The notes beneath the pieces were generated by a model, which was not told where the DNA came from, searched no databases, and was given only the letters and a program-made list of their open reading frames with translations. A DNA stretch of 64,000 bases from Desulfurobacterium pacificum (GTDB taxonomy: Bacteria; Aquificota; Aquificia; Desulfurobacteriales; Desulfurobacteriaceae). The number at the start of each line of letters is the position of its first letter. Position 1 is the first letter of the stretch. The translations under genes were made by a program, and so were the position numbers. Where the stretch lies: positions 186,001 to 250,000 of the forward strand of contig NZ_FXUB01000001.1 in the NCBI RefSeq assembly GCF_900182835.1, read 5' to 3'. Shown piece by piece: positions 1 to 11,183 of the stretch.

Positions 1-262
1 TAGGTACAACCTTCAAAGCTTTTTTGTAGTGAAACTCTGAGTTTGCGTATTTACCCCACAAGTAATAAAGCCAACCCAAACGCAGATTAACGGTGTATCC
101 GTTGGGATAATTATTGTAAACAGGCGTTAAAACTTCTATTGCCTTCTTGTAGTTACCCTCCTTCTCATAAGAGTAAGACTTAATGTAACACTCTTTTATC
201 TGCTCATAAGTGAGGGCAAAAGCCCCCACAGAAGAAAAAATCCCCACAAAAACAACAATCAA
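1..262 (-). CDS. Secreted TPR-like helical-repeat protein (partial, 3' end outside window)
   Basis: Only the N-terminal 87 codons are in the window. The likely start is TTG at 262-260, since no ATG lies in frame nearby. It gives a hydrophobic leader (FLIVVFVGIFSS) ending at a plausible cleavage site after AFA. The mature part has paired amphipathic helices with TPR-like spacing (YEKEGNYKKAIEVL, then LGWLYYLWGKYANSEFHYKKAL). Such proteins usually act as periplasmic scaffolds. The gene follows the beta-barrel gene by 4 bp, so it is probably the distal gene of the same operon and a periplasmic partner of that barrel. The leader contains a GGGGATTTTT motif at 236-245. The start codon is uncertain. 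Confidence 0.6.
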   Translation of the reverse strand, partial: MIVVFVGIFSSVGAFALTYEQIKECYIKSYSYEKEGNYKKAIEVLTPVYNNYPNGYTVNLRLGWLYYLWGKYANSEFHYKKALKVVP

Positions 263-266
263 AAAT

Positions 267-1157
267 TTAGAAAGAATATCCGAAAGAAACCGTTGCCGTT
301 GTTTGAGTAACATCATCTTCAGTCTCTACCTCTTTATACTTATTTACACCAAGATTGAGAGAAACTCTCGCTCTCGGTGAAATGGAATATCCAAACTCTG
401 CAAAAGCACCACCTTTGTACTTCTCGGTAAGATTATAAACCACAAAACCACCATTTTTAACAGCGAAAATCTGTTTTCCCAACCATCCACCAACCTTAAC
501 GTCAAACTTCTTGTAATAATATCTCAAATCGGCTTCGGCAGAGTAGTAGTTACTATTACCTATATCAATCTCAGAAGCCTTCTCTACGTGTATATAGTAC
601 CCTTTCAAATCAGCATAAACACCACCAACTGTTGGACTTGAATATAAACGGAAAGAAGCGTGAGGAGTTAACTGCAAGACGTCAAAATTAACCTTATTAT
701 CATATTTGGAGTAGTAAATGCCTAAACCACCGCTCCAGTTAAATAGGTAAGGATAAACTTTTTGGTAATTGAAATAAGTTCCATCAAAAAAGAGAGTATA
801 CCCCCCATCTGTTAACTCATCATCGCTATTTATGTAGTGTCCTCCAAAAGTAAACGTATGATTTTTTAGAATACCGTTGGTATTTGAATAAACAAAAGTA
901 AAATCTTCCTGATTAAGGTCGCTTTTGTTCTTATAGTTTATTTTCGTATACGAAGCTCCAATTTGCACTGCGTTACCAAAACCATCTCCAGAATTTACAT
1001 ACAAAGTAGAAGAATACCCATCACTCTTCAAATCTGACCCCGAATAGTTGATATAAGTCCCGTAAACAGAAGCGTAAGTGTAAGGTTTCCCACCGGCAAG
1101 AGCAGCATTAGAACCAGCAAGCAACAAAACTGCAGCGCTAAGTAGAAGTTTTCTCAT
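267..1157 (-). CDS. Outer-membrane beta-barrel protein
   Basis: This 296-residue protein has a clean signal peptide (about residues 1-21, ending AALA) followed by alternating Tyr/Phe/Gly-rich stretches typical of beta-hairpins. It ends FGYSF, with the terminal Phe that the BAM complex recognises. Short turns rich in Asp, Asn and Gly separate roughly a dozen predicted strands. I do not recognise a specific family. A strong ribosome-binding site (AGGAGGAAGG) precedes the ATG, which lies inside the last 20 bp of the urea-transporter/M23 gene, so the two are translationally coupled. By context it may be the outer-membrane channel or receptor of this gene cluster. That role is inference; the barrel call itself is well supported. 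Confidence 0.75.
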   Translation of the reverse strand: MRKLLLSAAVLLLAGSNAALAGGKPYTYASVYGTYINYSGSDLKSDGYSSTLYVNSGDGFGNAVQIGASYTKINYKNKSDLNQEDFTFVYSNTNGILKNHTFTFGGHYINSDDELTDGGYTLFFDGTYFNYQKVYPYLFNWSGGLGIYYSKYDNKVNFDVLQLTPHASFRLYSSPTVGGVYADLKGYYIHVEKASEIDIGNSNYYSAEADLRYYYKKFDVKVGGWLGKQIFAVKNGGFVVYNLTEKYKGGAFAEFGYSISPRARVSLNLGVNKYKEVETEDDVTQTTATVSFGYSF

Positions 1158-3228
1158 CCTTCTTCCTCCTAATAATTATTTTATCGCCGAAATTGAGCTC
1201 ATCAAAACCTAAGGTATCAGATACGACTGCGCAAGCACTTTTTCTTTTTCCCAATCCTTCTATTTGTGAAACTATCTTTAATTTATTATCGGATGAAACG
1301 AATCTCAAATTAGCACCTATCTCAAACAGAGAATGTGAAAAAGAGGAAATAAACAGTAGTATAGAACGTTTCAAAGTAGAACTTATGGAAATTAAAGGTA
1401 AATAATCCCTCCACTTTAGGTTTTCTCTAAACGTAAGAGGAACTTTTGAAGCACAAAATAGAAAATATTTCAAAGGTGAGTTCACATTACCCTCTATATG
1501 ATAAAAATAAAAGGTTGAATTGGATACACCAAAGTAGAGTTTCGCACTTCCGTCTGTAAAGTAAAACGTCCCATCAGGAGCCATTTTAACTTTTATATTA
1601 AGTTCTTCTACTCTTTCCCCCATTATTACTTCATAAGAAAACTCCTGGTCTATCAAGAAGTTCAACCTATTCTGCAGTCCTTTATCAGGATACACAGGTT
1701 CTACTACTTCTCCTTTTTTGGGAATACCTACATCGTAGAAAAACTCTTTTGAAACGTAAGAAGAAAACTTGAAAGGAACAGTAGGAACGCCTGCTTCCGG
1801 AAGAAGCTGAACGTGAACGTGAATATGAGGTTGAGGAGAGTAACCAGAGTTACCACAAAGCCCTAAAAATGTTCCTTTTGCAACAAAATCACCAACCTTT
1901 ACCTTTATAGACCCCTGTTTGAAATGGGCAATTAAAACGTAGAAGCCTCTCTTATCGTAAATAACAACGTAGTTACCCCAGTTTCTTTCCCTATCTGCAG
2001 AACCGGGAGGATTATCCGGTACATCGTTTACCACAAAAACTACCTGCCCATCAATAGGCGAAAGGACAGGTTTCCCAAAAGCATAATAATCGGTTAAGCT
2101 ATAACCATCTCCTTTAAAAGTGTTACCGTCCTCATCGGTTACAACGAAATCTACCGCATATTTCCAGGCTCCTTTATGAGTCCATTCATCGTCAAAAGAC
2201 TGCCAAACAGTCCACTTACCAGAGAACGGCAAAGCAATTTCTCGTCCCGTAAAAGGAAACCTCTTTTGAGAAGTTAAAAAGTAATCAAGAGTTCTTTCAG
2301 GTGTTCCTTTATAAACTTTTGTAACGTAGTAGAAGCTAACTGACATAAGAACGTATAGAAGTATATGGGTTACCAAATTAAAAGGTAAAGCAAAAACAGG
2401 TATTCCGTAACTTTCCCAAAAAACCTTTATTCCTTCAACAACAGGAACAGAAATAACAGAAGAAAGTAAAGCAAACTTGTAACTTCTCAAAGAAGGAATA
2501 AGAAAAACTCCACCAACAGCCATAGAAACCAAAATAAAATTGAAAGCGGAAGTATCTGAAAAAGCCTGATAGTACGAACCCTTCAATAAAGCCTCAACAA
2601 AAACGCCCGAAAAGTACCCTAAAACAGACAGAAAAAACAGAATACGTGAAACAGAGAACAAAACTATTGAAATCACTAAACCTGCAATAACCTCCGGCAT
2701 AAAGAAAACTGCCCCAAGAGACTGCAAATACCCTTTCAGCCACAACGGAACTCTCAGCAGAGAGAAGTTATCGTGGTAATAAAGAGAACCTACAAAGAGG
2801 TTGGAAAACTTCACTGAAGCCAAATAGAACAGAGAACTTACCAAAACGAAAGGAACGCTGAGAACAGGTAATCTAAAGTAGTAAGAAAGAACTGAGGACA
2901 TAACGTAAGTTAAGAGAAACGTTACAATACCCGCAACTGAAAAGAAGAAAATACTCAACAGATTTACTTTAAAAAGATAACCTAAAGACAAACCTACAAG
3001 CAGCGGATTATAGATATAGTAATCAAGCCGTAAAAACTCCTTTTTAAAACCGATTAATCTCGCAAAAATGTAAGAAGAAAAAACAGATACAAGACCGCCA
3101 ATACCTAAATTAAGGTTTGTAAAAAAAGTAAGAAGGAGGAGGACGACTCCTCCCGCCAAACTTGAATTAAAAAACACTGCCGAATAGCTTCTCACTACCG
3201 GAAGGAGAAATCTTCTATAATCACTCAT
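1138..3228 (-). CDS. Urea-transporter-like membrane domain fused to M23 metallopeptidase
   Basis: The 696-residue protein is a two-part fusion. Residues 1-305 are about ten hydrophobic segments with urea-transporter hallmarks: an NPLLVGLSLG selectivity-type motif at 74-83 and a second-half LPFNLVT motif near 281. Residues 335-500 are a LytM/M23 peptidase: H351 and D360 (in YAVDF) are first zinc ligands, H435 lies in LIAHF, and H468/H470/H472 form the HxH site. About 190 further residues at the C-terminus are unassigned. M23 enzymes cut glycine-containing peptides or peptidoglycan cross-links in the periplasm. The start overlaps the decarboxylase stop by 4 bp. The context suggests processing or transport of a small peptide product rather than urea uptake, since no urease genes are visible. 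Confidence 0.85.
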   Translation of the reverse strand: MSDYRRFLLPVVRSYSAVFFNSSLAGGVVLLLLTFFTNLNLGIGGLVSVFSSYIFARLIGFKKEFLRLDYYIYNPLLVGLSLGYLFKVNLLSIFFFSVAGIVTFLLTYVMSSVLSYYFRLPVLSVPFVLVSSLFYLASVKFSNLFVGSLYYHDNFSLLRVPLWLKGYLQSLGAVFFMPEVIAGLVISIVLFSVSRILFFLSVLGYFSGVFVEALLKGSYYQAFSDTSAFNFILVSMAVGGVFLIPSLRSYKFALLSSVISVPVVEGIKVFWESYGIPVFALPFNLVTHILLYVLMSVSFYYVTKVYKGTPERTLDYFLTSQKRFPFTGREIALPFSGKWTVWQSFDDEWTHKGAWKYAVDFVVTDEDGNTFKGDGYSLTDYYAFGKPVLSPIDGQVVFVVNDVPDNPPGSADRERNWGNYVVIYDKRGFYVLIAHFKQGSIKVKVGDFVAKGTFLGLCGNSGYSPQPHIHVHVQLLPEAGVPTVPFKFSSYVSKEFFYDVGIPKKGEVVEPVYPDKGLQNRLNFLIDQEFSYEVIMGERVEELNIKVKMAPDGTFYFTDGSAKLYFGVSNSTFYFYHIEGNVNSPLKYFLFCASKVPLTFRENLKWRDYLPLISISSTLKRSILLFISSFSHSLFEIGANLRFVSSDNKLKIVSQIEGLGKRKSACAVVSDTLGFDELNFGDKIIIRRKKDEKTST

Positions 3229-4574
3229 TGCAACTTCAACCTCTCTGGCAATCTCTCTCTTCTAACGATATCTTCAAGGTTTTCAGCTTCTCTTATAAGT
3301 TCAACGTTGCCATTTTCTCCTATCAAAACAACAGCTGGACGATACCTTATAAACTGCATCCACTGGGTAACGTTGTAAGCTCCTACTGGTGAAAGTATCA
3401 ATCTCGTTCCTCTCGGTAAAGGTGGTAGGTAAACCATATCGTCAACAACGTCTATGTTCATACACAAAGGACCGTACAAGACACAGGGTTCAGTAGGACC
3501 TTGCACGTCTCTATCAATCTCTACGTTAAAGTGGTACCAGAAAGCAGTAAAGAGAACGTTTACACCAGCGTCCAAAACGTAAGCTCTGCGTCCATCAGGC
3601 ATCCTCTTGGCAGCGTGAACGGTAGTTATCAAATAGCCTGCTTCATCTACTATGGCTCTACCGCTTTCAAGGATAAGTTTGGGATAATCGCCAGGTCTTA
3701 AACTCTGTAGTAAAGCGGTACATACTCTATCCGCAAATTCTTCAATAGAAGGTACCGCAACATCAGGCGGCAGATAAACACCTCTCAATCTGTTTTTTGA
3801 AGGAAATCCTCCCCCAATGTCTAAATATTCAATCTTGAATCCAAACTCATCCTCTACTCTATAGGCAAATTCAACCATTTTCTTAACTTCTGTTTCGTAA
3901 GCCTTGGGGTCAAGAATAAACGTTCCTATATGGCAGTGAAGTCCGTTAAGTTCTAACTTGCCGCCAGAAGCTATCCTCTTAACAGCATCCCATGCCTGCC
4001 CATTCTCAAGATTAAAACCGAACCTGCTCCACTGAGGCTGAATTCCTGTATCCATGTTAAGACGAATCCCTACTTTTATTTTCTTTCCTAATTCATCTGC
4101 AACTTGTTCAAGGTCAGAAATCTCTTCAAAATGGTCAACGTTAATTCTCGCCCCTTCAGAAACGGCAATTCTTAAAGCATCTAAAGGTTTGTAAGGACCG
4201 TTAAAGATTATTTTGCTTCCCGGAATACCAAGTCTCCTCGCTTTTTCATACTCAAATTCAGAAACCACTTCTGCAGTTTCACCTTCCTGATGGAGAATGC
4301 AACAGATGGCATCAAGATAGTTAGTTTTATAAGACCAACTAAATTCAACGTTCGGATACCTGAGAGTAAAAGCGTTTTTTATCTCCCTAAACTTATTTCT
4401 AAGCTTCTTTTCAGAAAAAACAAATAGAGGAGAACCAAATTTTTCAACTAATTCTTCAACAGGAACGCCATCAATGTCCCCTCTTACCTTCCTAAAGTAA
4501 GCTCCACCTCCGAACTTGTTCATGAACCCTGTTTTAAGTTTGAAAATTACTGGTTTTTCGTAAGCCTTTTTCAT
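3225..4574 (-). CDS. PLP-dependent decarboxylase, DAP/ornithine decarboxylase fold (type III)
   Basis: The 449-residue protein has the alanine-racemase-type barrel and C-terminal beta domain of DapDC/ODC/carboxynorspermidine decarboxylases. The PLP lysine is K83 in SYKTN; HCHIGT near 214 and GGGFPS near 255 bind the cofactor phosphate. A GPLCMNID segment near 366 supplies the Cys and Asp that act across the dimer interface. It is not an obvious LysA, because the genes around it are for peptide modification rather than lysine synthesis. The substrate cannot be read from sequence: it may be a free amino acid, an ATP-grasp product or a peptide C-terminus. AAGGAGG precedes the ATG, and the gene begins 15 bp after the second Cys-rich peptide gene. 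Confidence 0.82.
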   Translation of the reverse strand: MKKAYEKPVIFKLKTGFMNKFGGGAYFRKVRGDIDGVPVEELVEKFGSPLFVFSEKKLRNKFREIKNAFTLRYPNVEFSWSYKTNYLDAICCILHQEGETAEVVSEFEYEKARRLGIPGSKIIFNGPYKPLDALRIAVSEGARINVDHFEEISDLEQVADELGKKIKVGIRLNMDTGIQPQWSRFGFNLENGQAWDAVKRIASGGKLELNGLHCHIGTFILDPKAYETEVKKMVEFAYRVEDEFGFKIEYLDIGGGFPSKNRLRGVYLPPDVAVPSIEEFADRVCTALLQSLRPGDYPKLILESGRAIVDEAGYLITTVHAAKRMPDGRRAYVLDAGVNVLFTAFWYHFNVEIDRDVQGPTEPCVLYGPLCMNIDVVDDMVYLPPLPRGTRLILSPVGAYNVTQWMQFIRYRPAVVLIGENGNVELIREAENLEDIVRRERLPERLKLQ

Positions 4575-4589
4575 TTTATACCTCCTTAT

Positions 4590-4712
4590 TTACCATCTAC
4601 AGTGCCAGCAGTGACAAAACGCTCCATGACACCCTCTAAGCCCGCAACAAAAACCTCCTAAAACCCAAAGAACAACTAAGATAACTACCAAAATCCACCA
4701 TCCACCTCTCAT
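4590..4712 (-). CDS. 40-residue Cys/His-rich single-pass membrane peptide
   Basis: This ORF has its own Shine-Dalgarno site (GAGGAGG at 4718-4724, within the end of the preceding peptide gene) and starts ATG at 4712. The product is MRGGWW, then a long hydrophobic run (residues 7-20), then a short tail with six Cys and three His: FCCGLRGCHG followed by AFCHCWHCRW. The tail could bind metal or be the substrate of the adjacent modifying enzymes. It sits 2 bp after the first peptide gene and directly before the decarboxylase. I recognise no family. A working translation signal on both sides and the shared Cys-rich character support it as a real gene. Confidence 0.72.
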   Translation of the reverse strand: MRGGWWILVVILVVLWVLGGFCCGLRGCHGAFCHCWHCRW

Positions 4713-4714
4713 TT

Positions 4715-4846
4715 TTACCTCCTCGCAGGTGGACAGGGACAGCATCTATGAGGATAACAACCACAGTTTTTGTAGCAGGGACAACAAGAAGATAAAACAC
4801 CTCCAAACGTTACAAGAAGAAAGAAAAGAGCTATCAGTTTTTTCAT
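4715..4846 (-). CDS. 43-residue Cys-rich lipoprotein-like peptide
   Basis: The ATG at 4846 lies one base after the ATP-grasp stop codon, with GGGGAGGTG as its ribosome-binding site. The product begins MKKLIALFFLLV, a signal sequence, and reaches a lipobox-like LSSC near residues 19-22. The remaining 22 residues hold eight Cys in the pattern CCPC-(3)-CGC-(4)-CCPC and end PPARR. If lipidated, the mature chain would be a tiny Cys cluster anchored in the membrane. It could be a metal-binding peptide or the precursor of a ribosomally made modified peptide, given the PqqD, ATP-grasp and decarboxylase genes around it. Function is inference. Confidence 0.75.
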   Translation of the reverse strand: MKKLIALFFLLVTFGGVLSSCCPCYKNCGCYPHRCCPCPPARR

Positions 4847-4847
4847 A

Positions 4848-5876
4848 TTACACCTCCCCTCTTGTAACTATCTTTTGGAACTTTTCCATATCGGTTACAA
4901 AGTCATCTGTAAAGCGAACGTATAACTTACCTGCCTCGTAATCGGAATCTCTTTCAGGCTCAATACCTAAAGAAGCTTTAAGAAGCCTTCCAGGCAGGTT
5001 TACACCAACACCAGTGGCGAAATACACCCAGGCAGGAAACCTTGGGTTTATCTCTATCAGGTATATATCATCACCGTTCACTATACATTCAAATTCAAAA
5101 GCACCTCTCCACTTAAAGGCTTCCACAAAGCGCTTAGCGGCAGCTGTAAGTTTTTCATTTTTTAGAGTAACGCCCGTCCATATCTTTCCAAGTGACGTTA
5201 TCCAGAGCTTCTTTATGGCAACAAGTCCGAAATCACCACCTTCGCCATCACCCACGCCAACAACGTTCATCTCTTCACCGGAAACAACTTCCTGAACGAT
5301 TATTGGATATCCCCACTCAGAAGCTATGGAGTTAAAGTAAGAGGTAGCCTGAGAGATATTGAACGCCTTGTAAGCCTTGTAAAAAATCCCCTTCACCATC
5401 ACAGGAAAACCAACCTCTTCAACAGCTTTAACGAAATCCTCGTAAGAAGTTACAACTAATGTTTTAGGAACCTTAACTTCTATTTTTTCAGCAACTTCAG
5501 TTAACTTATCCTTACTTCTCAACCTAAACTGCTCTTCAGTAGGAAGAAACGTAGCAATACCAAAAGAAGAAAGTTTCTGAGCGTTCTTTATGAAAAGCGG
5601 CAATTCAGCATCAAGGGCAGGAATAACTGCATCAAGACCGCTTTTTGACTTAATGTAAAGAAGTCTTTCAATAAAAATCTCTTCGCCTTCAGATGGATAA
5701 GGCATTATGTAACTTTTGTCTATCAGCCAATCCATATATATTCCCGGTTCCATAGCATCGTAAGCAAAACCGATAACTTTTACTTCTAAACCGCTCTCTT
5801 TAACGCTCTTAGCTATTCCTATACCAGGACCTGGGTTGTCAACAGCGTTTATTCCGGAAACTCCTACCCTATACAT
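4848..5876 (-). CDS. ATP-grasp carboxylate-amine ligase
   Basis: The 342-residue protein has a CarB-like layout: an N-terminal Rossmann-like pre-ATP-grasp domain (residues 1-110), then ATP-grasp subdomains including a Lys-containing GFPVMVKG strand near 175, VQEVVSGEEMNVVG near 215 and the Mg-binding EINPRFPAW near 290. Members join a carboxylate to an amine through an acyl-phosphate and serve in peptide tailoring and small-molecule synthesis. Its ATG lies inside the last 8 bp of the PqqD gene, and the first Cys-rich peptide gene starts 1 bp after its stop. That tight pairing suggests it acts on a peptide held by the PqqD-like protein. Position 5382-5391 carries one GGGGATTTTT motif. Confidence 0.85.
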   Translation of the reverse strand: MYRVGVSGINAVDNPGPGIGIAKSVKESGLEVKVIGFAYDAMEPGIYMDWLIDKSYIMPYPSEGEEIFIERLLYIKSKSGLDAVIPALDAELPLFIKNAQKLSSFGIATFLPTEEQFRLRSKDKLTEVAEKIEVKVPKTLVVTSYEDFVKAVEEVGFPVMVKGIFYKAYKAFNISQATSYFNSIASEWGYPIIVQEVVSGEEMNVVGVGDGEGGDFGLVAIKKLWITSLGKIWTGVTLKNEKLTAAAKRFVEAFKWRGAFEFECIVNGDDIYLIEINPRFPAWVYFATGVGVNLPGRLLKASLGIEPERDSDYEAGKLYVRFTDDFVTDMEKFQKIVTRGEV

Positions 5877-6120
5877 TTTTTGCCTCCAAAATTCCCATCA
5901 ACCTGAGCTGCTCCAAGAAATCAATCAAATCTTTCTCTGCTTCTTCTCTTTCTACCTCGTAGTTTTCAACCAAAGCATCAAGAATTTCCGATTCACCCTT
6001 TCCTTCTTTTAGCTGTTTTAAAATGAAGAGCCCCACTTCGTTTACCGTATAGCTATTTCCCGTTTCCGGGTCAAAGATAAAACCTTCATCGTTAATAGCT
6101 AACCTGTTCAGTTTGTTCAT
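5869..6120 (-). CDS. PqqD-family peptide chaperone (RRE-type winged helix)
   Basis: The 83-residue protein starts ATG at 6120; a longer in-frame extension exists but lacks a ribosome-binding site, while AGGAGGTGAAAAG sits just before this ATG. It shows the PqqD pattern: FDPETGNSYTVNEVG at 16-30 (beta-hairpin), a helix containing ILKQL, EILDALVENY, and a C-terminal DLIDFLEQLRLMGIL. PqqD-like domains bind the leader of a ribosomally made precursor and present it to modifying enzymes. It overlaps the DUF4405 stop by 4 bp (ATGA) and the ATP-grasp start by 8 bp. No radical SAM enzyme is visible here, so this is not a PQQ operon. Confidence 0.85.
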   Translation of the reverse strand: MNKLNRLAINDEGFIFDPETGNSYTVNEVGLFILKQLKEGKGESEILDALVENYEVEREEAEKDLIDFLEQLRLMGILEAKNV

Positions 6121-6932
6121 CTTTTCACCTCCTGTAAAATCTGAAAGACCTGATAGGGATACATTCCATTTCCAAAAGCGATATCCCTCAAAGTGGTATC
6201 GGGAGAAACGTTTTTCAAACCATTCTGCTTTAAAACAATCACACATCTGTTCACTGGAATTCCCATTTCTCTACATATCTCTCTTAGCGTTTTTCTCCCC
6301 ATACCAGAACCTGGAACAAAAACGGCACTTCTTCTATTTTCTTTAAAAGAAACAGCTCTTTTAAGAATGGAATAAACGTAAGCTGGCGTAACTCCGTTCT
6401 CTACAGCTATCTGCTTCAAAGTTTCTTTAGGAGACTCTACTTTTAAGCCTTTAGATTGAAGAATAGCAACAGCTTTTGAAGGGGAAATTCCTAAAGTAGA
6501 ACTGACTCTTTCAAGGGTAAAAAGCTCAGCGTGAGGAGCCGGAGGCATAACGGCTGGTTTCTTCCACGAATTTTTAATTTTCTCTCCTAAACTCATAAAT
6601 GAACTAAATGGAGGAACGTTAAGAATAGTTCCTATCAAACAGACAAGAGCTAAAATCGTTGCTGAGAGGAAAATCCCCCCACTCTTCTCTATATACTTCA
6701 CTATATTCTTCCAGTTTAAAATAACGTGCCATACTCCAAAAATCACCATTAAAAATCCAAAAATCGTGTGTACGGCATCCCATTGGTCTTTGTCAAGTCC
6801 AAGAAATCTCCAGCCTGTCCAATAAGCAACTCTCCCATGTGGCATAATGTAGAGAACAATTCCAGAAACAATCATTACTACAAGGCAGTAAAGGAGAAAC
6901 AGGCTGACAAATTTCCTTGTCTTCATTTTCAA
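6117..6932 (-). CDS. DUF4405 membrane protein with two C-terminal helical repeats
   Basis: The 271-residue protein has three hydrophobic segments (about 8-30, 52-73 and 86-105) and resembles DUF4405 proteins, cytochrome-b561-like four-helix proteins. H32 (MPHGRVAYWTGW), H55 and H69 are candidate haem or metal ligands. After the conserved GTILNVPPFS segment a soluble part holds two copies of one module, at about 141-192 and 216-269, each reading roughly LGI-x-AV-x-IL-x-GLK-x-SP-x-TL-x-IA-x-NG-x-P-x-V-x-x-IL. This suggests a redox or membrane-anchoring protein with a peptide- or protein-binding tail. It is cotranscribed with the PqqD gene (4 bp overlap). A hairpin upstream may set its level relative to the Gln-rich gene. 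Confidence 0.75.
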   Translation of the reverse strand: MKMKTRKFVSLFLLYCLVVMIVSGIVLYIMPHGRVAYWTGWRFLGLDKDQWDAVHTIFGFLMVIFGVWHVILNWKNIVKYIEKSGGIFLSATILALVCLIGTILNVPPFSSFMSLGEKIKNSWKKPAVMPPAPHAELFTLERVSSTLGISPSKAVAILQSKGLKVESPKETLKQIAVENGVTPAYVYSILKRAVSFKENRRSAVFVPGSGMGRKTLREICREMGIPVNRCVIVLKQNGLKNVSPDTTLRDIAFGNGMYPYQVFQILQEVKR

Positions 6933-6939
6933 CCTCCTT

Positions 6940-6964
6940 AAAAAGGTGGAGGCAGACCGCCTCC
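6940..6964 (-). terminator. Hairpin with U-tract, likely attenuator between Gln-rich gene and DUF4405 gene
   Basis: On the minus strand GGAGGC-GGTCT-GCCTCC (6964-6948) is a perfect 6-bp GC-rich stem with a 5-nt loop, followed by ACC and five T (6944-6940). It lies 4 bp after the Gln-rich gene stop and 8 bp before the DUF4405 start. The three bases between stem and T run make it weaker than a canonical terminator, so partial read-through is likely. Confidence 0.6.
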
Positions 6965-7311
6965 GGAATTAAGCGTAAACGCTTACAGAGCTTTCCGAGG
7001 TCTGGGAGGAGGCAACAGAAGAGATGATGTCCATAACAGATGTAAACAACTGGTCGGGGGAGATGGAAGAAAGGTCCAGCTGTAAAATCTGGTTTTTCGC
7101 CTCTGCCCTTAAATCCTGGGGGAGGTTCTGAAGGGCAGAGGAAATCTGTTGCCTCTGGTCAGGAGTTAACTGCTGCATAACCTGTCCCAGACCTTTTTTG
7201 TACCTATGACGATATTGATGCATCTGTTGTAAGTAATCCTGGGAGTAGTTCTGGTTTACTCTATCAATCATGATTCTCTACCTCCAACCCGGTTTTTAGC
7301 GGTCTGCCTCC
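6948..7311. repeat. 13-bp perfect inverted repeat bracketing the Gln-rich gene
   Basis: GGAGGCAGACCGC reads on the plus strand at 6948-6960 and its exact complement GCGGTCTGCCTCC at 7299-7311. In the minus-strand transcript the two copies flank the 100-residue gene and could pair over about 340 nt. The downstream copy also forms the local terminator-like hairpin, so the two structures exclude each other. Confidence 0.65.
6969..7271 (-). CDS. Gln-rich 100-residue protein of unknown function
   Basis: I do not recognise a family. The protein has no signal peptide and no membrane segment. It is rich in Gln (YLQQMHQY, VMQQLTPDQRQQ) and is predicted mostly helical, ending in a Ser/Thr-rich tail (SSVASSQTSESSVSV). 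It starts ATG at 7271 behind GGAGGTAGAGAATC. Translation looks strong, and the hairpin after it may make it more abundant than the downstream genes. It lies between the DUF2202 gene (44 bp gap) and the DUF4405 gene and is probably part of the same sigma-54-driven transcript. A regulatory or chaperone role is possible, but nothing in the sequence proves it. Confidence 0.6.
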   Translation of the reverse strand: MIDRVNQNYSQDYLQQMHQYRHRYKKGLGQVMQQLTPDQRQQISSALQNLPQDLRAEAKNQILQLDLSSISPDQLFTSVMDIISSVASSQTSESSVSVYA

Positions 7312-7315
7312 AAAG

Positions 7316-8632
7316 TTAAGGACATCTTCTCAAAGTAGTTTCTTTGTTTGTAGTTAAATCTTTTATATAGCAAGCCATATAGGTATTAGAAGTGTTAAAC
7401 CTTCTCCAGACAGGTGGTGTATAAACTCCTACCTCAACATCATCTCCTACTTTGACATCAGGATTAGCCAATCTCCATACAGGAGACAAATAGACTGTGT
7501 ACCTTTCATTGGTAGGAGTAATCACTTCCACAACCCACCAGTTGATGGGTCTTCTTAAACCTTTCCTCTGTTCTACTTTAGCTACAATTCCTTTAATAAC
7601 AGTTGTTTTTCTACTAACAGCACTAAATCTTTTCTTGGTGGTGGAAGAAGTTGAAACTTTCTTACACCATCTTCTCCAAGAAAAATCGTAACTAACTCCG
7701 GTATTTTCATCCTTCAGCGTGCAAGCCATATAACCGTTTAAGCCTTTCATAATCCAGAAAGGAGGTTGGAATCCAGTAAAAGTAACCTTGTCTCCCTCTT
7801 TAACACCCAAGCTTCTGTAGAACCAGGTAGGTGCCAGCCTTACCTCTACAACTCCTTTATCGGTCTTAACATCAACAGCCCACCAGGTTACACCTCTCCT
7901 ACCGTATCCAGGAACTTGCTTAACACCAACAACAGTACCGGAAATCTCAGCAGAATTAATCAAACTGTATCCCGAAGTTGTATAAACTCCCGTTTCGTGC
8001 TTTGTTGACATAATTCTGTCAAACTCAGCTTTAGAGATGTACTTTGGCGTATAGTCCAAACCAAATCTCCTGAGAATACCCACAAAAGCTCGCATATGGT
8101 TTCGTGAACCTTTCATTAGATTCTGATAAACAAACTTGATATCTTTGTTATCCGTTCTTGAAATAGCATCTTCAAGGTCTTTAATGTCAAGGTCTTCTAT
8201 GGTGGCGCCAACTTTAAGGGCATCAATCAGAGATTTTTTACCCTGATTGACTAACTGAACGTAAAGTTCCCGCATTTTCTTGCTCTTAAATACTCCAACC
8301 TTATCGCCCACTTCTTTCACAGGGTCTTTAATGTTGTAGCGTTTCAGAAGAAAAGCTATCATTTTTGTATGCCAGTTTTCCGACTTTGCGATATTTTTGA
8401 AAACGGGGAGAGGGTAATACTTTGAAAGGGTAAGGTAAACATCTCGTGCCAACTTCTCCTCTTCTCTCATATGAATAAGGTCTTTTATTTCCTGAGGAGA
8501 AAGAGGCTGTTTGGGAAGATTCTTAAGGTAAGTGAGTGCTGGCGGAGCATTCTCTTTTACGTTAGCCGCCTGAGATGCGCTAATTCCTCCTAACGCAACT
8601 AATGTCATCGTTATCGCTATTAACTTCCTCAT
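7316..8632 (-). CDS. DUF2202 ferritin-like protein with duplicated C-terminal domain
   Basis: The chosen ATG at 8632 has AGGAGGAAACG before it; a longer frame starts upstream of the promoter and is rejected. The 438-residue product has a signal peptide (1-22, ending SQAA). The ferritin-like DUF2202 domain (about 45-190) holds EEEK at 57-60, SENWH with E85/H88, E146 and H179 in SRNHMRAF as likely di-metal ligands. Two copies of a beta-rich module follow (about 226-323 and 343-437), each with a WW pair, a V-x-L-x-P-x-W strand, V-K-x-GD-x-V and a closing YMAC...KD...C. The protein is probably periplasmic and metal-binding. It is the first gene after the sigma-54 promoter. Confidence 0.8.
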   Translation of the reverse strand: MRKLIAITMTLVALGGISASQAANVKENAPPALTYLKNLPKQPLSPQEIKDLIHMREEEKLARDVYLTLSKYYPLPVFKNIAKSENWHTKMIAFLLKRYNIKDPVKEVGDKVGVFKSKKMRELYVQLVNQGKKSLIDALKVGATIEDLDIKDLEDAISRTDNKDIKFVYQNLMKGSRNHMRAFVGILRRFGLDYTPKYISKAEFDRIMSTKHETGVYTTSGYSLINSAEISGTVVGVKQVPGYGRRGVTWWAVDVKTDKGVVEVRLAPTWFYRSLGVKEGDKVTFTGFQPPFWIMKGLNGYMACTLKDENTGVSYDFSWRRWCKKVSTSSTTKKRFSAVSRKTTVIKGIVAKVEQRKGLRRPINWWVVEVITPTNERYTVYLSPVWRLANPDVKVGDDVEVGVYTPPVWRRFNTSNTYMACYIKDLTTNKETTLRRCP

Positions 8633-8667: not shown

Positions 8668-8686
8668 AAGCAAAAAAGATGCCAAG
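8668..8686 (-). promoter_or_regulatory. Sigma-54 (-24/-12) promoter for the DUF2202 gene and probably the downstream cluster
   Basis: The minus strand reads CTTGGCATCTTTTTTGCTT. The GG (8683-8682) and GC (8671-8670) doublets are exactly 10 bases apart, and the TTGGCA and TTGCT contexts agree with the consensus. Transcription would start near 8658, about 26 nt before the ATG. An NtrC-type activator with a GAFTGA loop is encoded immediately upstream. Confidence 0.8.
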
Positions 8687-8775: not shown

Positions 8776-9888
8776 TCAAGAAATCGGGAAAATCAGACGA
8801 AAAACCGTTCTATCCTTCGTTTGAAAGACCTCAACTTTTCCCCCGTGAGCTTCAACAATTCTTTTAACGTTATAAAGTCCCAAACCAAAACCGTTTTTCT
8901 TCGTTGAATAGAACGGCGAAAATATTTTCCCTTTATCAAAGGGTTTAACCGCAGAATCTCTTATTTCCAGAATACAGTCATTCTTCCTTTTCTCACATAC
9001 AATTTCTATTTTCCCGTTCTTTCCTATTGCCTCAACAGCGTTTTTAAGTAAGTCAACAACCACCGATTTCAATTTTTCTCTATCACCTGTTACAACACAA
9101 TTGTTCAAAGAAAGATTAATTTCTATTTCGCGAGAAGATAATAAATCTCTAAACTGAGAAACCGTCGTTTCAACAAGGGTCTTAAGGTTAACTCTTTCTT
9201 TTACCAGCTTCAAAGGCTTCCTCAAGTTCGCCGTTTCTTCCACGTATCTTGAAAGGTTAACTATCTCTTCTTTCAGGGAATCAATCGCAAGACTTTTACA
9301 ATCCTTTTCTACCTTATAGAGTAAAAGTCTGAAAGCGTTCAAGCGGTTTTTAACTTCATGAAGAATGGAGTGAATAACCAAGTTTATACTTTCAAGTTTA
9401 TCTTTTTCTTTTCGTTCGTTTTCAAGGAGGATTTTTTCCTTATAGTATTCCCTCAAAATAGCAAACAAAACTGCTATGAAAATGAGAGTGAAAACCACTA
9501 ATGACAGCAACGCATAAACGATATGCTTATTTAATTCCCTGACGTAATGGAAATCATAATAGAGAGTGAACTTAAAAGGCTCAGCCGTTATAGTAACTTT
9601 ATAATAGTTATCAGAAACGTCAGAACCTGGAATAATGATTTCCCTACCTTCAAGAGAAAAGGTTGCACCTTTTAAAAGTTTAGAACTCTGCATATAAGAA
9701 GCTATGGCTTCTACCGGGTCTCCTCCTCCTGCCAACGTTCCTTCAACCAAAGACTTAACTCTTGCAGTTTCTTCCTCTATAACCAAGTTATAAAAATCCC
9801 CCAACTCCTTATGAAGCAAATAAAGATTAGCAACAATAACGCCTAAAAGCGTTACTAAAACGAAAGAAAACGGCAGCAACTTTTTCAT
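8776..9888 (-). CDS. Sensor histidine kinase of an NtrB-like two-component pair
   Basis: The 370-residue protein has transmembrane helices at about 5-25 and 122-146 enclosing a periplasmic sensor domain of about 95 residues. The cytoplasmic part has the phospho-accepting H177 in HEVKNRLNAF, an N-box (LLKNAVEAIGKNG) and a G-box with FYSTKKNGFGLGL. The HExxN-type H-box is typical of kinases paired with sigma-54 activators. It overlaps the response regulator stop by 4 bp and follows it in the transcript. The sensor domain has no recognisable ligand motif. It presumably phosphorylates the upstream-encoded regulator and so controls the sigma-54 promoter at 8668-8686. Confidence 0.88.
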   Translation of the reverse strand: MKKLLPFSFVLVTLLGVIVANLYLLHKELGDFYNLVIEEETARVKSLVEGTLAGGGDPVEAIASYMQSSKLLKGATFSLEGREIIIPGSDVSDNYYKVTITAEPFKFTLYYDFHYVRELNKHIVYALLSLVVFTLIFIAVLFAILREYYKEKILLENERKEKDKLESINLVIHSILHEVKNRLNAFRLLLYKVEKDCKSLAIDSLKEEIVNLSRYVEETANLRKPLKLVKERVNLKTLVETTVSQFRDLLSSREIEINLSLNNCVVTGDREKLKSVVVDLLKNAVEAIGKNGKIEIVCEKRKNDCILEIRDSAVKPFDKGKIFSPFYSTKKNGFGLGLYNVKRIVEAHGGKVEVFQTKDRTVFRLIFPIS

Positions 9889-11183
9889 ATCCCGTACTTT
9901 TTCCTCTTATACCTCAAAGATTTCTCATCTATTCCGAGCAACTTAGCAGCTTTCGTCTGAACGTAATTAGCTCTCTTCAGGGCGTTTTCTATCAATTCTT
10001 TTTCAAATTCTGCAACCAATTCCGGTAAAGTCTTTGAAAAATTTTTACCCTTCTCCTTAATTCCTACAATTTCCTCAAGATTGCTTTTAGAAATTTTTCT
10101 ATCAGAAACTATAACAAGCCTATGAATAAGGTTTTCAAGCTCTCTTACGTTACCTGGAAAGTCGTACGAAAGAAGAAGTTCCAAAGCTTCCGGCTCAAAC
10201 TCTATCTTTTTACCGTACCTCTCTCCAAACTTCTTCAAAAAATAACCCACAAGCTCTGCAATATCTTCCGGTCTCTCCCTTAACGGCGGAATCTCCAAAG
10301 TAAGAACGTTCAATCTATAGTAAAGGTCTTCTCTGAACTTTCCTTCCTCAACCAACTTCTTTAAATCCCTGTTGGTAGCTGCAACAACCTTAACGTCAAC
10401 TTTAACAGGCTTCAAGCCACCTACCGGTCTTACTTCCCCTTCCTGTAAAACTCTCAAAAGCTTAGCTTGAAGAGGTAGCGGCATTTCACCTATTTCATCA
10501 AGAAACAGCGTTCCGCCATCAGCCTCAACAAAAAGTCCAGGTTTACTAAACGTAGCTCCGGTAAACGCTCCCTTCTCGTATCCAAACAATTCACTTTCAA
10601 ACAGCTCTTCCGGAATGGCAGCACAGTTGATTGAAACGAACTTACCTTTTCTTCCACTCTCTTTATGAATAAACTTGGCTATCAATTCCTTTCCTGTTCC
10701 ACTTTCACCTAAAATAAGAACAGGAGCATCGGCTTTGGCAAAAACAGAAGCTTTCTTAAGCAGGTCTTCCATTACTTTGGAGGAATAAACAATCTCTCTG
10801 CCGTCCGGTTTAACGCTTTTAAGTTGGGACAGCTGCCCTGCCTTCTCTATAAGGTTAAGTAAAACATCTGGGTCGTAAGGTTTTGTGACGTAGTGGAATG
10901 CTCCCTCTTTAATAGCAGAAACGGCATCTTCAACGTTACTAAAAGCAGTAACAACTATTACTTCAACGTTAGGACAAAGCTCCTTTACTTTCTTCATAAA
11001 AGAAAGACCATCTTCTCCAGGCAACCGAACGTCCGTAACAACTACGTTAGGAAGATATTTATCCAAAATCTGGTAAGCCCTTTCTGCACTTCCGCAAGAA
11101 TAAACTTCAAACCCTTTCTCCTTTAATATTTCTTTAAGTAGTTCTCTCTGAATATCATCATCTTCAACGACTAAAACCTTCAT
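9885..11183 (-). CDS. Sigma-54-dependent NtrC-family response regulator
   Basis: The 432-residue protein has three domains: a receiver (1-120) with acidic pocket EDDD, phospho-acceptor D51 and the conserved KP; an AAA+ domain (about 130-365) with Walker A GESGTGKE, the sigma-54-contacting GAFTGA loop and a LDEIGEM Walker B; and a C-terminal Fis-type helix-turn-helix ([23 protein letters not shown] in part). It would bind enhancers as a dimer or hexamer and open sigma-54 promoters by ATP hydrolysis. Its coding region abuts lpxI with no gap and overlaps the kinase. The palindrome at 8755-8772 is a natural candidate binding site. Confidence 0.93.

Follow-up and report, generated by a model that had tools for sequence, protein, structure and literature searches.

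The window analysed here is a stretch of 64,000 nucleotides from Desulfurobacterium pacificum (contig NZ_FXUB01000001.1, positions 186,001 to 250,000 of the forward strand). A row of genes at its left end, all on the minus strand and in the order given by the original prediction, was annotated as follows (window coordinates).

1..316, minus strand: TPR protein with signal peptide, core gene 6; the coding region extends left past the window edge, to about window -367
267..1157, minus strand: outer-membrane beta-barrel protein, core gene 5; signal peptide and barrel-like sequence, position conserved in Aquificota and other phyla
1138..3228, minus strand: UT-M23, core gene 4; UT-fold channel (residues 11-293), M23 metallopeptidase (residues ~335-490) and C-terminal domain
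3225..4574, minus strand: fold-type-III (alanine-racemase-fold) PLP decarboxylase, core gene 3, with a FigC-like GPLCMNID loop
4509..4574, minus strand: leader-like tail at the N-terminus of the decarboxylase, MKKAYEKPVIFKLKTGFMNKFG, with a YxxPxI RRE-recognition motif
4590..4712, minus strand: cys1, accessory; 40 aa, single TM, Cys/His-rich C-terminus
4715..4846, minus strand: cys2, accessory; 43-aa Cys-rich predicted lipoprotein
4848..5876, minus strand: ATP-grasp ligase, core gene 2; CarB/PRK12767/PylC-like superfamily
5869..6120, minus strand: PqqD-like discrete RRE, core gene 1; 83 aa, PF05402
6117..6926, minus strand: DUF4405 membrane protein, accessory; two C-terminal HTH-like repeats, also in Thermodesulfobacteria
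6969..7271, minus strand: small Gln-rich protein, accessory; relatives in G131 and G132 only
7316..8632, minus strand: DUF2202 ferritin-like secreted protein, accessory, operon gene 1; DUF2202 match 4.3e-54
8669..8684, minus strand: predicted sigma-54 -24/-12 promoter, TGGCATCTTTTTTGCT, called from its motif
8776..9888, minus strand: sensor histidine kinase, upstream neighbour conserved in Desulfurobacteriaceae
9885..11183, minus strand: NtrC-type sigma-54-activating response regulator, conserved upstream neighbour

The genes listed in the original prediction were found to be real, but five of them do not belong to the core, and a TPR gene overlapping the barrel gene had been missed. Three start sites were revised. 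DUF2202 was set at 7316-8632, pqqD was placed at 5869-6120 rather than starting at 6246, and cys1, given before as 4590-4745, was shortened, its most likely start being the ATG at 4712, which is preceded by a strong Shine-Dalgarno sequence (AGGAGG). The cys2 signal peptide is of the lipoprotein type (..LSS/CC). The barrel-like protein has zero Pfam matches.

Cassette core and distribution

UT-M23, ATP-grasp ligase and decarboxylase were each searched for in 136 Aquificota genomes. The three were found together in 40 of the 44 genomes with any of them, far above chance (Fisher p about 1e-29 to 1e-32, for genomes that are not phylogenetically independent). Of the four exceptions, G084, G127 and G110 are assemblies 71-95% complete and G121 has a decaying operon. 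In the last of these the PLP and UT-M23 genes are interrupted by stops (L100, G121:C107:1-12000) in a nearly complete genome, which makes the cassette dispensable.

In neighbourhood maps of Aquificota the order PqqD, ATP-grasp, PLP, UT-M23, barrel, TPR is constant, and the small Gln-rich ORF, DUF2202, DUF4405 and both Cys-rich ORFs are variable. The UT-M23/barrel pair is unlinked from PqqD/ATP-grasp/PLP in G124-G126, and in G108 the PLP, UT-M23 and ATP-grasp genes lie on three contigs, all being kept. One Aquificota family (L072, L073, L082, G108:C12) has the cassette split into unlinked loci with the parts retained, and the PLP tail is kept in L082. A partial tandem copy, DUF4405-PqqD-ATP-grasp, was seen upstream of an intact cassette at L065 (G116:C65).

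The GTDB genome collection was scanned with the ATP-grasp alignment, yielding 253 relatives, the best 80 of which are at 56-81% identity (about 60% between phyla). The cassette is present as an operon in more than a dozen other lineages, with the same gene order in distant phyla. Lineage labels among the best 80 of 253 were Aquificota, Thermodesulfobacteria, Desulfofervidaceae, Desulfurellales, Desulfococcaceae, Verrucomicrobia, Lentisphaerae, Planctomycetota, Kapabacteria, Ignavibacteria/Melioribacter, Calditrichota, Gemmatimonadota, Nitrospinia, Eremiobacterota, Riflebacteria and WOR-3; many of the 80 are MAGs, whose labels are possibly wrong. Isolates among them are Thermodesulfobacterium hydrogeniphilum, Thermosulfurimonas dismutans and Thermodesulfatator autotrophicus. 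PqqD, ATP-grasp, PLP, UT-M23 and barrel are all present in 33 loci with a called ATP-grasp ORF, and many other loci end at contig ends. The cassette is real, and ancient or widely transferred. Because the ATP-grasp enzyme is so deeply conserved, many Gram-negative bacteria probably have a general use for the cassette product.

No plasmid-borne homologues were found. An anti-phage system was rejected, there being no PADLOC match, as was a phage origin, there being no informative PHROG match. Apparent PqqD-ATP-grasp gene fusions were traced to start-site artefacts of the overlapping frames. No description of this gene set was found in the open-licence literature searched, and none of the family libraries searched has a name for the cassette. 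The original prediction of an unusual system that joins an RRE and an ATP-grasp enzyme to envelope parts, with neither radical SAM nor YcaO enzyme, was thus upheld within that literature as to the system, but not as to its proposed substrate, a Cys-rich peptide.

The PqqD-like protein and its candidate ligand

The protein called PqqD-like in the original prediction was confirmed as an RRE domain (wHTH), with a PF05402 score of 63.4 bits against a cutoff of 23.4 (E 2.5e-17) and with the YxxP-binding residues in register. Its best NCBIfam match was the lasso-peptide RRE model NF033530 (43.5 bits, below cutoff). The HPr-rel-A PqqD model TIGR04353 was barely exceeded (36.7 against a cutoff of 35), and there was no HprK-like kinase among the Pfam matches of the operon.

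Discrete RREs bind the motif [Y/W]xxPx[L/V/I/F/A] (PMC13381572; PMC12710340). In the LppB pocket Tyr is held by D70 and Pro by V35 and F74; N33 fixes the kink, and T30, L32, F74, M78 and L83 hold the hydrophobic residue that follows (PMC13381572). LppB N33, D70, F74, M78 and L83 were aligned with N27, D64, F68, L72 and I77 of the window PqqD, the N-to-D spacing being 37 residues in both. Among 110 PqqD sequences the Asp was found in 109 and the Phe in all 110, and the Asn position is N in 90, with S in the other 20. Conservation of the Asp and Phe in the RRE helix may be a general trait of the PqqD family, and would therefore indicate a competent pocket rather than this ligand.

Ligands were first proposed among the Cys-rich peptides: according to the original prediction, cys1 and cys2 are precursors that are modified by the PqqD and ATP-grasp proteins, processed by M23 and exported. 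Both genes do lie inside the operon, together with PqqD and ATP-grasp domains. Cys-rich genes between ATP-grasp and PLP were, however, found only in four genomes (G000, G132, G133, G135): no cys1 homologue was present at other loci in the neighbourhood maps, cys2-like genes beyond the window genome were confined to G132, G133 and G135, and about 100 other loci have either nothing or no conserved ORF in this slot. In G131 the slot is occupied instead by a 96-aa secreted CxxCH, c-type cytochrome-like protein (L063:8194-8484). Furthermore, cys2 and its relatives carry Sec/lipoprotein signals and no YxxP leader. PqqD and ATP-grasp genes do occur without the peptide genes, then, but not with an already known product. 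Being extras of particular lineages, the Cys-rich peptides give the idea of a Cys-rich RiPP no support; that idea is already largely refuted by this distribution and is very improbable.

A separate precursor sharing the leader of the decarboxylase tail was searched for and rejected. A tail profile hit one place in the whole window genome, the decarboxylase itself, and no small ORF in the 120 fetched loci carries the tail. The separate precursor of a RiPP gene cluster was therefore not found, as far as precursors with a YxxP-tail leader are concerned. No conserved small ORF was found in the gaps between cassette genes in other phyla.

The N-terminus of the decarboxylase has about 25 residues to which its PDB relatives, solved DAP decarboxylases among them, do not align. 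The consensus of this tail is MKxxYEKPVIxKLxTGxMNKFG, and Y[E/Q]xPx[IVLMF] is found at the N-terminus of all 98 PLP homologues (98/98). A weak match to DUF5972 covers the first 12 residues.

At locus L115 the PqqD, ATP-grasp and PLP genes share one reading frame, and a stop-read-through translation could therefore be modelled in AF2 as a single chain. With PqqD present, residues 423-434 (KKAYEKPVINPI) formed an ordered island between disordered stretches (block mean pLDDT 74), with tail strands at 424-425 and 431-433; the model is of an artificial fusion from one locus, lacks about 13 N-terminal residues of PqqD, has a pTM of 0.54 and was judged from pLDDT and strands. In the same chain without PqqD no strand formed, and the whole tail fell below 50 (block means 30-35). 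Docking of the tail to PqqD predicts such PqqD-dependent ordering. What PqqD probably binds is the N-terminal tail of the decarboxylase itself, and of the mechanistic claims made here this predicted docking is the best supported, by motif, pocket residues and AF2 together.

The discrete RREs FusB1, LppB and PqqD, of lasso peptide, LPP and PQQ pathways, share with the window protein PF05402, the YxxPx[hydrophobic] ligand motif and pocket residues in register. In contrast to those pathways, the putative ligand here is the N-terminus of a 450-aa decarboxylase, and the cassette has no precursor peptide, leader peptidase, cyclase or radical SAM enzyme.

The tail could alternatively be the substrate that is modified. 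PqqD would present it to the ATP-grasp enzyme for addition of an amino acid or isopeptide in the TGxMNKFG region, the adjoining active site would decarboxylate the adduct and M23 would free it, the enzyme acting as its own RiPP-like carrier. A second conserved block, MNKFG, does lie behind the leader motif; graspetide ATP-grasp enzymes modify leader-bearing peptides (PMC8939145); and the homologous BtrK decarboxylates a carrier-bound amino acid (PMC7857480). Thermodesulfobacteria, however, keep YxxP and have an LREKK-type sequence for MNKFG, the MNKFG part was not ordered in AF2, and a 50-kDa protein spent per product would be costly unless the tail were recharged. Modification of the tail was considered unlikely.

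Chemistry of the decarboxylase and the ATP-grasp ligase

The best sequence and fold match of the PLP enzyme was FigC (7kh2), an N-citrylornithine decarboxylase. The alanine-racemase fold, the SYKTN Lys and the Cys of the C-terminal loop were all identified. The loop reads CMN in 97 of 98 PLP homologues, the Asp beside the catalytic Cys being replaced by Met. That Asp binds side-chain amines in ODC, ADC and DAPDC, and is Met in FigC (PMC7857480). The specificity-helix segment, LFTAFWY, has neither Asp nor the Arg of DAPDC. A diaminopimelate decarboxylase was not recognised: the LysA model scored 237 bits against a cutoff of 297.9, and the loop is CMNID, not CES.

FigC, SbnH, AcsE, MccE and BtrK decarboxylate conjugated or carrier-bound amino acids (PMC7857480). 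Because the window enzyme resembles FigC, with the same Met beside its catalytic Cys, its substrate is, by analogy, probably an amino acid conjugate that the ATP-grasp enzyme has made; the adjoining ligase would be the natural conjugate maker. Like this clade (FigC/FslC, SbnH, AcsE, MccE, BtrK), the enzyme lacks the Asp that binds side-chain amines, and it has the Met of FigC. It differs in an invariant CMNID loop and LFTAFWY helix of its own and in the extra leader-like tail, and its partner is an ATP-grasp ligase rather than an NIS synthetase.

An ATP-grasp ligase and a fold-III decarboxylase also act in sequence in butirosin biosynthesis (BtrJ/BtrK/BtrI), BtrJ being the ATP-grasp enzyme; unlike that pathway, the cassette has no acyl carrier protein and has an RRE and envelope parts. 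Graspetide clusters are alike in the ATP-grasp ligase and, in some groups, in a recognition partner. Here, by contrast, the ligase is CarB/PRK12767-like, and no precursor with an acceptor-rich core was found beside it in the cassette.

A metallophore route was also weighed, in which the ATP-grasp ligase and the FigC-like decarboxylase would make a siderophore-like conjugate, with DUF2202 and the barrel handling metal. FigC, the closest decarboxylase, helps to make the siderophore rhizoferrin (PMC7857480), and DUF2202 and DUF4405 are linked in two phyla, having been seen beyond Aquificota in Thermodesulfobacteria only. The same two genes are nevertheless missing from most cassette carriers, neither an NIS-synthetase nor a TonB-receptor gene was recognised among the cassette genes, and H357 of FigC, a predicted citryl contact (PMC7857480), aligns with the Ile of CMNID. 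This route was considered improbable.

Envelope proteins and a proposed RRE-organised cassette

The UT domain of UT-M23 was assigned to the UT fold by PF03253 (6.7e-63, 213 bits), and the M23 domain by PF01551 (4.4e-13). Both pore Phe of the UT half-repeats are retained, as in dvUT and other bacterial urea transporters. The cassette protein differs from dvUT in its fused M23 domain and at positions equivalent to dvUT Q24, E187 and T130, which we take to be the urea filter; they are changed to E/G/A, A and S, respectively. Urea transport was rejected on these residues and on the score against the urea transporter NCBIfam equivalog (118 bits, cutoff 274.6). M23 residues H351, D360, H435, H468 and H470, the metal and catalytic set, are invariant in 57 of 57 sequences, and a single invariant Cys458 adjoins the active site.

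The intact M23 site would suit an envelope-remodelling system, in which an amine or peptide is put into or taken from peptidoglycan, periplasmic M23 acts on murein and UT moves small fragments inward. The relation of the decarboxylase to DAP decarboxylase and the envelope location of TPR protein and barrel agree with it. Against it, the positive-inside charge distribution and the known UT topology place M23 on the side of the UT N-terminus, predicted to be the cytoplasm; the lone Cys458 also fits the cytosol; and the decarboxylase lacks the DAP-binding residues (PMC7857480). Remodelling was regarded as quite unlikely. A cytoplasmic M23 is likewise odd for export, as well as for an M23 enzyme.

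Of 80 loci, 39 have a member of the TPR family after the barrel. The two form one ORF in L138 (Verrucomicrobia), and because of this fusion they appear to be functionally tied. BcsC and PgaA are TPR-barrel exporters, and likewise combine TPR and outer-membrane barrel; the cassette barrel is smaller and has no accompanying glycosyltransferase.

The explanation preferred overall is an RRE-organised cassette, in which an ATP-grasp/decarboxylase product is exported by UT, TPR and barrel proteins and, in Desulfurobacteriaceae, is under a sigma-54 switch; as a whole it was given an even chance of being correct. The PqqD-like RRE would bind the YxxP tail of the decarboxylase, as motif, pocket residues and AF2 suggest, and this binding would gather the decarboxylase and the ATP-grasp ligase into a putative assembly. 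The ligase would couple an amino acid to a carboxylate; judging by its FigC-type active site, the decarboxylase would then strip the alpha-carboxylate from the conjugate, as FigC, SbnH, BtrK and MccE do. From the protein architectures, the product would leave by way of the UT-fold channel, the M23 domain fused to it cutting product or carrier, and would be carried across the outer membrane by the TPR/barrel pair. The probable output of the cassette is an exported small amine, although we infer both the product and the direction of transport. Some split loci have no linked UT-M23 or PLP, which counts against the scheme.

Within this scheme the RRE would be used outside RiPPs: the leader would be a permanent enzyme tag, and the RRE would assemble an ATP-grasp/decarboxylase complex for a metabolite exported via the UT-fold channel. 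This use is held tentatively, with slightly more doubt than belief. If true, RREs would gain a second job, enzyme docking, and a new RRE use would be joined to a new metabolite pathway. Tools that infer a missing RiPP precursor wherever an ATP-grasp gene has a PqqD-like protein nearby would be misled by a large group.

The predicted sigma-54 element (TGGCAT-N5-TTGCT) lies 37-52 bases before DUF2202. Most Desulfurobacteriaceae have an equivalent element ahead of their DUF2202-led operon, as do four loci of Thermodesulfobacteria (L118, L120, L127, L139). The kinase and the NtrC-type regulator adjoin the operon in Desulfurobacteriaceae, where, from motif and synteny, this sigma-54/NtrC two-component system would switch it. 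In the DUF4405 protein (6117-6926) the HTH-like repeats are fused after the membrane domain, an unusual fusion.
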